Made by a program: the position numbers and the translations under genes
Assembly (NCBI RefSeq): GCF_017848315.1
Contig: NZ_JAFKEC010000001.1
Span: forward strand, 245,805-309,804
DNA length: 64,000 nt
Direction: 5' to 3'
DNA from: Pseudomonas palmensis
GTDB taxonomy: Bacteria; Pseudomonadota; Gammaproteobacteria; Pseudomonadales; Pseudomonadaceae
Shown: positions 51,304 through 55,929 of the stretch, piece by piece
Numbering within the stretch: the stretch's first letter is position 1
Layout of the letters: each line of letters starts with the position of its first letter
Notes under the pieces: generated by a model
What the model was told of the DNA's origin: nothing
The model's database searches: none
The model's input: the letters and a program-made list of their open reading frames with translations, nothing else

Positions 51304-51331
51304 TTGATAGCACGTAGCTATGTGCTAGAGT
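51304..51331 (+). promoter_or_regulatory. Candidate promoter with operator-like dyad for the DUF2130-SIR2-HerA operon
   Basis: ttgata, 16 bp, tagagt. The dyad tagcac-N8-gtgcta (51308-51327) lies between the two elements and touches the -10, a typical repressor position. Confidence 0.3.
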
Positions 51332-51413
51332 CGCGAGGAAGGTCAGGGATTTGGCAACGGTCTTCCAGATGTGCTGGACATCAAAACATAAAAAACTGCA
51401 CGGAGGCTAAAAA

Positions 51414-52598
51414 ATGCATGAAATCATCTGTCCGCATTGTGCAAAGGCTTTCAAAATTGATGAGGCTGGATACGCAAATATTCTGAAGCAGGTTCGGGAT
51501 AGCGACTTCGAGAAACAGCTGCATGAGCGACTTGAGTTAGCCGAACAAGAAAAGCAGAGCGCCATTGAACTAGCAACTGCAAAGGCCGCTAGCGAATTGC
51601 AGAAGGCAGCAGCAACCAAGGATGCAGAAATTCAAGAATTAAAAACCAAGATTGCGTCGATAGAGATTGAAAAAAAAATCGCGATCACTGAGGCTGTTAG
51701 CTCTGCCGAAAAAGAGCGAGATAAGCTACAAAGTGACCTCGAGAAAGCCGAACTAGAAAAACAACTTGCAGAAAAATCTCTCAAGGATAAATACGAAACG
51801 CAGATCAAAGATCGTGATGATGCTATCGAACGTCTCCGAGACATGAAGGCGCGCCTATCTACAAAGATGGTTGGTGAAACCCTCGAGCAGCATTGTGAAA
51901 CAGAGTTCAATCGTATTCGAGCCACAGCCTTTCCAAGAGCATACTTCGAAAAGGACAATGACGTACGAACCGGAAGTAAGGGCGACTACGTTTTTCGTGA
52001 CTGGGACGAAGCGGGTACAGACATCGTTTCCATTATGTTCGAAATGAAAAACGAGGACGATAAAACTGCAACTAAGAAAAAGAATGAAGATTTTCTAAAA
52101 GAGCTTGACAAAGATCGCATTGAAAAAGGGTGCGAGTACGCTGTGCTGGTTTCACTCCTAGAGCCGGACAGCGAATTATACAATATGGGAATTGTTGACG
52201 TTTTTCACAGATTCCCAAAGATGTACATCGTCAGACCTCAGTTTTTCATTCCAATCATAACGCTGCTACGAAATGCGGCGATGAACTCTCTACAGTACAA
52301 GTCTGAACTTTCGCTAATGAAAGCGCAAAACATTGATATTACAAATTTCGAATCTGAGCTTGAGACCTTCAAATCAGCATTCGCAAAAAATTATGACCTA
52401 GCCTCAAAACGATTCCAAACAGCTATTAGCGAAATTGACAAATCAATTGAGCACCTCCAAAAAACTAAGGAAGCATTGCTAGGTACGGACCGAAACCTTC
52501 GTCTGGCGAACGACAAAGCGCAGGATGTTACGATAAAAAAACTTAACCGTGGCAACCCAACCATGGCTGCGAAATTTGCCGATCTAAAAGCTACATAG
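51414..52598 (+). CDS. DUF2130 protein: coiled coil plus restriction-nuclease-like domain
   Basis: 394 residues. N-terminal CPHC (residues 6-9), a long coiled coil (about 30-150, E/K/A-rich), then the DUF2130 region with YVFRDWDEAGTDIVSIMFEMKNED near residues 200-225. The D...E-x-K pattern fits a PD-(D/E)xK-type nuclease core. DUF2130 proteins are of unknown function but occur near defence genes. Strong Shine-Dalgarno CGGAGG upstream of the ATG. It lies 66 bp ahead of the SIR2 gene and is probably co-transcribed. AT-rich, unlike the host. Confidence 0.8.
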   Translation: MHEIICPHCAKAFKIDEAGYANILKQVRDSDFEKQLHERLELAEQEKQSAIELATAKAASELQKAAATKDAEIQELKTKIASIEIEKKIAITEAVSSAEKERDKLQSDLEKAELEKQLAEKSLKDKYETQIKDRDDAIERLRDMKARLSTKMVGETLEQHCETEFNRIRATAFPRAYFEKDNDVRTGSKGDYVFRDWDEAGTDIVSIMFEMKNEDDKTATKKKNEDFLKELDKDRIEKGCEYAVLVSLLEPDSELYNMGIVDVFHRFPKMYIVRPQFFIPIITLLRNAAMNSLQYKSELSLMKAQNIDITNFESELETFKSAFAKNYDLASKRFQTAISEIDKSIEHLQKTKEALLGTDRNLRLANDKAQDVTIKKLNRGNPTMAAKFADLKAT

Positions 52599-52664
52599 CA
52601 GAACCGAGGAAATAAACTTCTGCCGTCAATCTACGATCGTCGATTCAATATAACAGGTGAGAAT

Positions 52665-53849
52665 ATGGAAAATACCTCGCACAATCCCGATCAGCACATG
52701 TTTGGATTTCGTCAACTTGCTACAAATGGACGAAAAAAAATAGGCTTACTGATTGGTGCAGGGGCGCCTGTCAGCATAAACGTAGGTGACGCAGGAAGCT
52801 GGAAACCGCTGATACCAAATATTGCCGGCCTTGAGAAAATCGTCTTAGACGAACTATCCGAAAGTCAACGCAATGTATACAGTCAAATAAAATCCTCATT
52901 CCCAGACTCAAACCTAGAAAAAGTCCTGTCACGTGTAAGAATGCTTGCCGAGGTTATTGGAGAGGGAAAGCTTTTTGATTTTTCGGAAAAAGACTTCTCT
53001 GCTTTATCTGAAGCAATATGCAATTCGATTCGGAAAGTAGTTGCGCAGGACTTACCACTGGGCGCAAACCCATATTCTGAGCTTGTGTCGTGGATTAATG
53101 GAATCAATAGGAAGTATGCAATTGAAATTTTCACAACAAATTATGATCTTTTGATTGAAAATGCTTTGGAGCGGGCCAAAACACCTTATTTTGATGGATT
53201 CAGCGGATCCAAAAGTGCTTTTTTTGATCCTTCAAGCATTTCAAAAAATGATCTACCGCCGCGTTGGGTAAGGCTTTGGAAGCTCCATGGCTCGATTGGA
53301 TGGGAATCAAATGCTAATGGAGAGGTTGTGCGCGTACCAGACTCCAAAAACGCTAATATGGTATACCCCTCGCACATAAAATACGATCAAACACAAGCCG
53401 CTCCATTCTCTTCTCTTTTTGAACGCCTGAAAAACTTCATCCTTGAGCCTGACACGTTAATTTTAAGCGCCGGATTTTCTTTCGCTGATGCCCACATTTC
53501 CTCGCGATTGCTTGAGTGCCTAATGGCTAATCCCACCGCCGCATTATTTGCGTTCCAGTTTAATAGTCTAGCGCATGAAAAAGCCGCTAAAGAATTGGCG
53601 CTAAAGTGTCCAGGGATAAGTGTTTTTTGTAGTGATGGCGCTGTAATTAACGGAGTTGAAGCGAAGTGGAAAATCGGCACCCCTCCGACCAAGAGCTGGC
53701 ATGAAATACGAGCAGAATACTATAAGGATCAAAAATTTTTGCTTGGGGATTTTCTTCGGCTAGCTCGTTTTCTCGCAACTGCTGGCAGCGACGTATCTCA
53801 AGACGCAATTCCTCCTGTACAACAGGAAGTACAAGAGGGAGTAGTATGA
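52665..53849 (+). CDS. SIR2-family NADase component of a SIR2-HerA defence system
   Basis: 394 residues. The SIR2 NAD-binding signature is LLIGAGAP at residues 28-35, followed by FTTNYD at 156-161 (Asn 159) and LWKLHGS at 204-210 (catalytic-type His 208). No zinc-finger cysteines as in deacetylase sirtuins, which agrees with NAD-consuming defence SIR2 domains. The C-terminal part is of unknown fold. Its stop overlaps the herA start (ATGA), so the two are made together. In characterised SIR2-HerA pairs the proteins form a complex that depletes NAD during phage infection. Confidence 0.88.
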   Translation: MENTSHNPDQHMFGFRQLATNGRKKIGLLIGAGAPVSINVGDAGSWKPLIPNIAGLEKIVLDELSESQRNVYSQIKSSFPDSNLEKVLSRVRMLAEVIGEGKLFDFSEKDFSALSEAICNSIRKVVAQDLPLGANPYSELVSWINGINRKYAIEIFTTNYDLLIENALERAKTPYFDGFSGSKSAFFDPSSISKNDLPPRWVRLWKLHGSIGWESNANGEVVRVPDSKNANMVYPSHIKYDQTQAAPFSSLFERLKNFILEPDTLILSAGFSFADAHISSRLLECLMANPTAALFAFQFNSLAHEKAAKELALKCPGISVFCSDGAVINGVEAKWKIGTPPTKSWHEIRAEYYKDQKFLLGDFLRLARFLATAGSDVSQDAIPPVQQEVQEGVV

Positions 53850-55618: not shown

Positions 55619-55626
55619 GAGAGATC

Positions 55627-55839
55627 ATGGAACGTGTATCTGTTAGTTCTTCAAATATTGCATCTGTTGGTCATGATGAGTCCTCACAGACTCTCGAAGT
55701 TGAGTTCCTAAACGGAGCGGTGTATGAATATTACGACGTGCCTGGACATGTCTATCAAGAGTTAGTATCCGCATCTTCCGTCGGGGGCTATTTCGCGCAA
55801 CGGATAAAAAAAGTATACGGATTCTCCCGTGCTGGATAA
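55627..55839 (+). CDS. KTSC domain protein at the end of the SIR2-HerA operon
   Basis: 70 residues: VSSSNIASVGHDESSQTLEVEFLNG followed by VYEYYDVPGHVYQELVSASS and GGYFAQRIK, a complete KTSC domain. This small fold occurs alone or fused to other proteins and may bind RNA or proteins; its role in defence is unknown. It starts 8 bp after herA, behind GGAGA, so it belongs to the same operon. Confidence 0.85.
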   Translation: MERVSVSSSNIASVGHDESSQTLEVEFLNGAVYEYYDVPGHVYQELVSASSVGGYFAQRIKKVYGFSRAG

Positions 55840-55897
55840 CCCTCCCTATACGGAGCTATATTTTTCGATTTGAGCTACACAAGCCATGCTTTGTTTG

Positions 55898-55929
55898 GAG
55901 GAGGCTCGCATCGTGATGCGAGCCTCCTC
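55898..55929. repeat. Perfect 15 bp hairpin after the SIR2-HerA operon
   Basis: GAGGAGGCTCGCATC and its exact complement with a 2 bp centre. No T-run on either side, so a classical terminator is unlikely; it may block 3' exonucleases or be a binding site. The rest of the gap 55930-56194 shows no gene. Confidence 0.6.

Follow-up and report, generated by a model that had tools for sequence, protein, structure and literature searches.

Four consecutive genes in a 64,000-nucleotide stretch of the Pseudomonas palmensis genome (contig NZ_JAFKEC010000001.1, positions 245,805 to 309,804; hereafter the window) very probably encode a predicted SIR2-HerA anti-phage system of the HerA-KTSC branch, in which the KTSC domain has been split off as a gene of its own and likely acts as the C-terminal domain of HerA, with an optional, possibly nuclease-like DUF2130 protein encoded in front. 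This reading was built on gene content, gene order, conservation, natural HerA-KTSC fusions, the ordered KTSC of solved complexes and a DUF2130 gene that is present in some loci only. Pfam and PADLOC profile matches over the open reading frames (ORFs) of the window gave the following genes (aa, amino acids):

51414-52598, + strand: DUF2130 protein, 394 aa (PF09903, 306 bits; ORF list and Pfam)
52665-53849, + strand: SIR2 of the SIR2_2 family, predicted NADase, 394 aa (PF13289; PADLOC SIR2 PDLC04094, 534 bits)
53846-55618, + strand: HerA-type ATPase/translocase, 590 aa (PADLOC HerA PDLC04105, 503 bits)
55627-55839, + strand: KTSC protein, 70 aa (PF13619, 85 bits)

A first-pass annotation, made from the letters alone, had listed these four genes on one strand with tight spacing and intact SIR2 and HerA motifs, and it was borne out by coordinates, Pfam and PADLOC. 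DUF2130 and SIR2 are 66 nucleotides (nt) apart, SIR2 and HerA overlap by 4 nt and KTSC follows HerA after 8 nt. SIR2 retains GAGAP (residue 31), TTNYD (157) and KLHGS (206), which we read as its nicotinamide adenine dinucleotide (NAD) site motifs, and HerA has both its Walker A (GSTGSGKST, 160) and its Walker B (LLIVLEEAH, 437) intact. An SIR2 with intact motifs next to a HerA with both Walker motifs marks the pair as a predicted SIR2-HerA (Nezha-like) system. Neither protein reached the NCBIfam equivalog cut-off (SIR2_antiphage, NF042942, 72.8 of 500 bits; HerA_antiphage_2, NF042944, 241 of 850 bits), and, judged by sequence, the window proteins are related to but distinct from those equivalogs.

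Conservation of KTSC next to HerA

A SIR2 alignment scan with one genome per species returned 360 relatives, from which the best-scoring 80 loci were fetched. A KTSC domain followed HerA on the same strand in 73 of these 80 loci. Six of the seven misses are explained by a contig that ends before a complete KTSC (L013, L046, L054, L060, L075, L077) and in the seventh (L045) the HerA match stops after residue 548, the HerA being broken, leaving no clean absence. The gap between HerA and KTSC was centred near zero across loci. Of 74 triads, one of them the window's, 15 have KTSC fused to the end of HerA, in the same frame with no stop and through a linker of 20-21 residues; thirteen of the fusions form one uninterrupted frame of 677-681 residues, and in the other two (L027, L037) HerA is broken further upstream. 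The fused label required two changes on the HerA tree, in which the broken L037 was kept on a very long branch and L027 was represented by its larger HerA piece (L037, broken, and L009, cut, were dropped from one comparison). Neighbour clustering recovered a HerA cluster in 78 loci and a SIR2 cluster in 68, KTSC falling below its size and E-value limits.

Wider samples gave a similar arrangement. Among 199 genomes of the genus, all six other genomes with a HerA of at least 42% identity have the triad (HerA being spread over two frames in G114); so does G441, from the class sample. Of 33 plasmid records that match SIR2 over at least 80% of its length, with hosts that include Pseudoalteromonas, E. 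coli, Rhizobium, Bradyrhizobium and the archaeon Natrinema, KTSC was found on 23 by match listing, on one more by a later look and as an annotated gene on six that were opened, the other three being unopened siblings. KTSC is rare in the class, where 13 of 274 genomes were above the cut-off and four of the 13 copies adjoin HerA. The idea that KTSC is a chance neighbour was rejected on the 73 of 80 loci, the 15 of 74 fusions and this rarity. The first-pass annotation had counted KTSC as part of the system, in the role of a small regulator or adaptor, and would have abandoned it had it been missing from nearly all related loci; its membership stands, as a probable HerA domain and not as a separate regulator.

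Several other genes were seen around these units. In Citrobacter and Enterobacter plasmids (L245, L246; 3290-7113) the SIR2-HerA-KTSC unit adjoins a recombinase and chromate-resistance genes, and in a haloarchaeal plasmid (L086; 7663-8755) it is followed by pieces of an ADP-ribosylglycohydrolase. KTSC genes are annotated next to ThiF-family adenylyltransferases in three haloarchaeal plasmid matches (H41, H42, H45). Clustering also showed Qat and AbiE genes repeatedly next to loci of the fused-KTSC branch (L029, L031-L034, L036, L037, L070), with names from hidden Markov models (HMMs) in L029 only.

KTSC as a probable domain of HerA

The window KTSC matches residues 629-695 of the 696-residue HerA chain 8wiv_A of the PDB (58 bits), a chain whose residues 10-603 are matched by the window HerA (486 bits); for the window SIR2 the match is 8w9l_A (276 bits). 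A profile built from the natural HerA-KTSC fusions covers 8wiv_A over its whole length (783 bits). When structures were compared, the KTSC portion of a predicted fusion could be laid over residues 636-696 of both 8wiv_D and 8wj3_N (61 residues, 1.4-1.6 Å), and 8wld_M and 8wof_B were also aligned through residue 696; KTSC is ordered in these 8wiv, 8wj3, 8wld and 8wof chains and is thus an ordered part of the solved machine. The complex in 8w9l, 8wiv, 8wj3, 8wk0, 8wld, 8woc, 8wod and 8wof holds the closest solved SIR2 and HerA and the same KTSC domain. KTSC is fused to HerA there, whereas in the window it is a separate gene, placed right after the HerA C-terminus at 8 nt downstream. Since the closest solved complex has KTSC as the C-terminal domain of HerA, the window presents a split form of a known machine. 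We take these entries to be the Paenibacillus SIR2/HerA system of Liao et al. 2024, whose abstract is said to report a HerA spiral stabilised by a unique C-terminal extension; this extension would presumably be the KTSC segment.

Other described systems are further away. The Nezha SIR2-HerA of E. coli (8j4u, 8su9, 8sub) and of V. cholerae, the latter as described in PMC11559045, shares SIR2 and HerA with the window and depletes NAD+; in V. cholerae, according to the same paper, protection requires the SIR2 active site and HerA. The E. coli Nezha is far more distant from the window than the 8wiv group (HerA 108 bits, SIR2 51 bits), and its 610-aa HerA chain was not among the three PDB chains matched by the window KTSC. 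Section 3.7.1 of PMC9503650 mentions, as its author's unpublished observation, variants with HerA, KTSC and an endoDNase; these have HerA with a KTSC gene as in the window, but there the nuclease replaces the sirtuin, whereas the window has SIR2 and KTSC together. According to PMC12198126, the Sir2-HerA system did not show the C-terminal hook of DUF4297-type HerA. In a full-text literature search, outside which most subscription papers fall, sixteen papers named KTSC or DUF2130, a KTSC domain and HerA were linked only in PMC9503650, and no other paper linked them by title or abstract among the SIR2-HerA matches listed.

A number of observations weigh against this reading or limit its reach. 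The 80 loci are the best-scoring of the 360 relatives, so the KTSC rate holds for the closer part of the family. All four more distant HerA loci opened in the genus, one of which (G007) showed no SIR2 either, have no KTSC, and none was annotated on a Peribacillus plasmid with a HerA of 29% identity; KTSC is therefore not needed by all SIR2-HerA machines and marks one branch, not every such system. Plasmid NZ_CP076849, one of the 33 above, has a HerA cut short and its KTSC about 9 kb away, and nine of the 13 KTSC-bearing genomes of the class have KTSC with no HerA of the window type nearby. The distance correlation of HerA with KTSC was weaker than that with SIR2, for which the shortness of the protein may account. 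On the structural side, the aligned range in 8wod and 8woc ended before KTSC, and AlphaFold gave a fused HerA of low quality everywhere but in KTSC (mean predicted local distance difference test score 39).

A different function for KTSC, as a separate regulator or nucleic-acid-binding adaptor (a DNA sensor, for example) tied to HerA without being a structural domain, is possible but doubtful. PMC9503650 and PMC7824862 call KTSC DNA-binding and RNA-binding, respectively, and KTSC genes are found elsewhere, phages included; the constant-linker fusions and the ordered KTSC of the solved complexes, however, make it physically part of HerA in relatives. KTSC could also be both, a HerA domain that binds nucleic acid.

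With KTSC taken as a HerA domain, the homologous systems suggest how the window proteins may work. SIR2 rings and a HerA hexamer would assemble into one large complex, which a phage-derived signal would activate. By analogy, the activated SIR2 would act as a NADase in this strain too, hydrolysing NAD+ so that phage replication stops. The KTSC protein would bind HerA in trans at the site of the fused domain, and would stabilise or gate the hexamer. In the parts of the literature examined SIR2-HerA is a two-gene system, and a large branch of it has a third, easily missed gene of 70 residues, which other members carry as a fusion to HerA. If KTSC is left out when systems of this branch are cloned or called, false negatives may result. 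The role of the HerA C-terminal domain can be probed simply in the split form.

Distribution and partners of DUF2130

The DUF2130 protein has an N-terminal CPHC motif and a PF09903 domain (residues 121-379) with D191 and E210-x-K212, and possibly contains a PD-(D/E)XK core, to which weak structural support points. Its coiled coil varies by units of 69 residues among relatives (394, 463, 538 and 609 aa), the window having the shortest form.

DUF2130 was counted in the 80 SIR2-HerA loci with a broad profile (a narrower first one missed L074 and L089). It was found in seven, always on the same strand, lying in front of the operon in L002, L003, L004 and L028 and behind it in L005, L021 and L074, and was absent from the other 73; at least 1.5 kb could be inspected upstream in 73 of the 80 loci and downstream in 66. 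It was also annotated one gene further on from the operon in two Bradyrhizobium plasmids. Its presence in six loci and the window needs four changes on the HerA tree, L009 being scored as lacking it though that contig starts inside SIR2, and the L074 copy, found after this count, would add to them. In the genus, 3 of 398 genomes scored above the cut-off for DUF2130, namely the window's genome and two whose copies are broken; in the class, 36 of 369 did (the window's, 32 other loci and three with partial copies). By our own arithmetic, far fewer than one of the 80 loci would have it as a neighbour under random placement, a figure that clustering in defence islands raises, and its same-strand placement beside the operon looks commoner than its rarity would give.

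Beyond this operon DUF2130 has varied company. For the 32 other class loci, the nearest same-strand neighbour of at least 100 aa was never a SIR2 or HerA of the window type, and no KTSC was found in their stretches by our own ORF calls; these greedy calls, also used for clustering and for the distant HerA loci of the genus, hide some genes, as in L160, where DUF2130 was masked by a longer overlapping frame. Fourteen of the 32 loci, picked partly by size, were named with PADLOC, and ten have a PADLOC family next door (AriA-/OLD-like, PDC-S06, type I restriction, IetA, PDC-S73, another SIR2 or Cas6). In E. coli, DNA like the Citrobacter copy occurs in 3 of 5426 genomes, and in the two that were opened DUF2130 lies 2 nt downstream of an OLD-type gene, in a type III or type I restriction locus. 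On a Paraburkholderia plasmid (L096) the order is DUF2130-DUF4297-HerA; DUF2130 directly precedes an effector-HerA pair as in the window, but the effector is DUF4297 and no KTSC is annotated. No defence gene was annotated next to DUF2130 in Mitsuaria and on one Bradyrhizobium plasmid. A tree of 16 DUF2130 cores mixes these contexts (support was weak for 8 of the 13 inner branches). Altogether, DUF2130 is best described as an optional module with several partners. The first-pass annotation had made it a component of the system as sensor or second nuclease; it proved to be a recurrent same-strand neighbour and an optional module at most.

An OLD-type ATPase-TOPRIM gene lies directly upstream of DUF2130 in L097, L102, L105, L106, L144-L146 and L155, mostly at 2 nt (42 nt in L155), and was named by HMM in L097, L102, L106, L145 and L155; the two may form a two-gene unit. 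In L160 (6917-7957, - strand) a SIR2 of a different PADLOC type (PDLC04082) comes 3 nt after DUF2130. The 8-kb stretch of L183, which holds a partial copy, includes a distant HerA-like gene (E 6e-17).

That DUF2130 merely shares the island, as an independent gene that settles close to defence genes, is a serious contender at somewhat under even chances. It is widespread away from SIR2-HerA, as the 32 class loci attest, and this operon is likewise repeatedly accompanied by Qat and AbiE genes (clustering gave six loci for each, HMM-named in L029 only). On the other side, copies that precede SIR2 lie 41-77 nt from it or overlap it by 4 nt, the strand is the same in all seven loci and the spacing from OLD-type genes is 2 nt in several other records. 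More tentatively, DUF2130 may be a portable nuclease module, its coiled-coil arm adjustable in length (one to four 69-residue units), that joins various ATPase-driven defence machines (SIR2-HerA-KTSC, DUF4297-HerA, OLD/AriA-like and restriction systems) and supplies a second killing or sensing activity, KTSC being the HerA clamp, fused or in trans. We find it quite improbable that DUF2130 is the obligate sensor or second nuclease of a four-gene SIR2-HerA machine, although it recurs beside the operon with four tree changes despite its rarity and it is about as similar to the window copy as SIR2 and HerA are to theirs (96/94/97, 92/91/90 and 80/78/80 percent in L002, L003 and L004), as it is missing from 73 of 80 loci, can precede or follow the operon, is broken across two frames in L002 and L003, the two closest relatives, unless assembly errors are to blame, groups in L005 and L021 with OLD-linked copies apart from the window (99% support, 16-row tree) and is 86% identical in L028, where SIR2 is 49% identical. 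Within the preferred reading, an optional component of a SIR2-HerA-KTSC system, DUF2130 would cut or sense nucleic acid as an accessory that the core can do without. Its placement next to several kinds of defence system makes this family, which has no assigned function, testable.

Genomic surroundings of the operon

Other features of the window are as follows:

40242-40317: transfer RNA gene, tRNA-Thr
40465-41799: tyrosine integrase
about 48500-48524: copy of the tRNA-Thr 3' end, attachment site (att)-like (14 nt exact, a 1-nt deletion, 11 nt more)
50141-50548: integrase fragment
51304-51331, + strand: candidate -35/-10 pair from a promoter scan, at chance level
55898-55929, + strand: strong hairpin 3' of the operon, without a T-run (folding against shuffles)

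The four genes are AT-rich as first described (GC content 0.43-0.45, against 0.59-0.69 outside about 42-57 kb). The first-pass annotation had also set the operon between a promoter and a hairpin, within a tRNA-targeted island, and these points fared unevenly. The hairpin is strong (-34.9 kcal/mol for 55880-55950, z -5.0, equalled by 0 of 200 shuffles), yet it has no T-run and was missed by a terminator scan of the window. The promoter was dropped as a sign of the operon start, being one of seven such matches against an average of 8.5 in shuffles. An island with tRNA-Thr, integrase and repeat does exist; read as att, the copy at about 48500-48524 closes it before the operon begins at 51414. The operon starts about 2.9 kb past this repeat, in a second, adjoining low-GC stretch that holds the integrase fragment. 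A 17-nt repeat at 40358 and 56255 was not accepted as att, being terminator-like at 40358. The tRNA-Thr island itself (40242-48524) carries four genes at 43039-48260, one with a DUF5677 domain and three with no Pfam match, and a SUKH (SMI1/KNR4) gene lies at 58151-58723 of the window.
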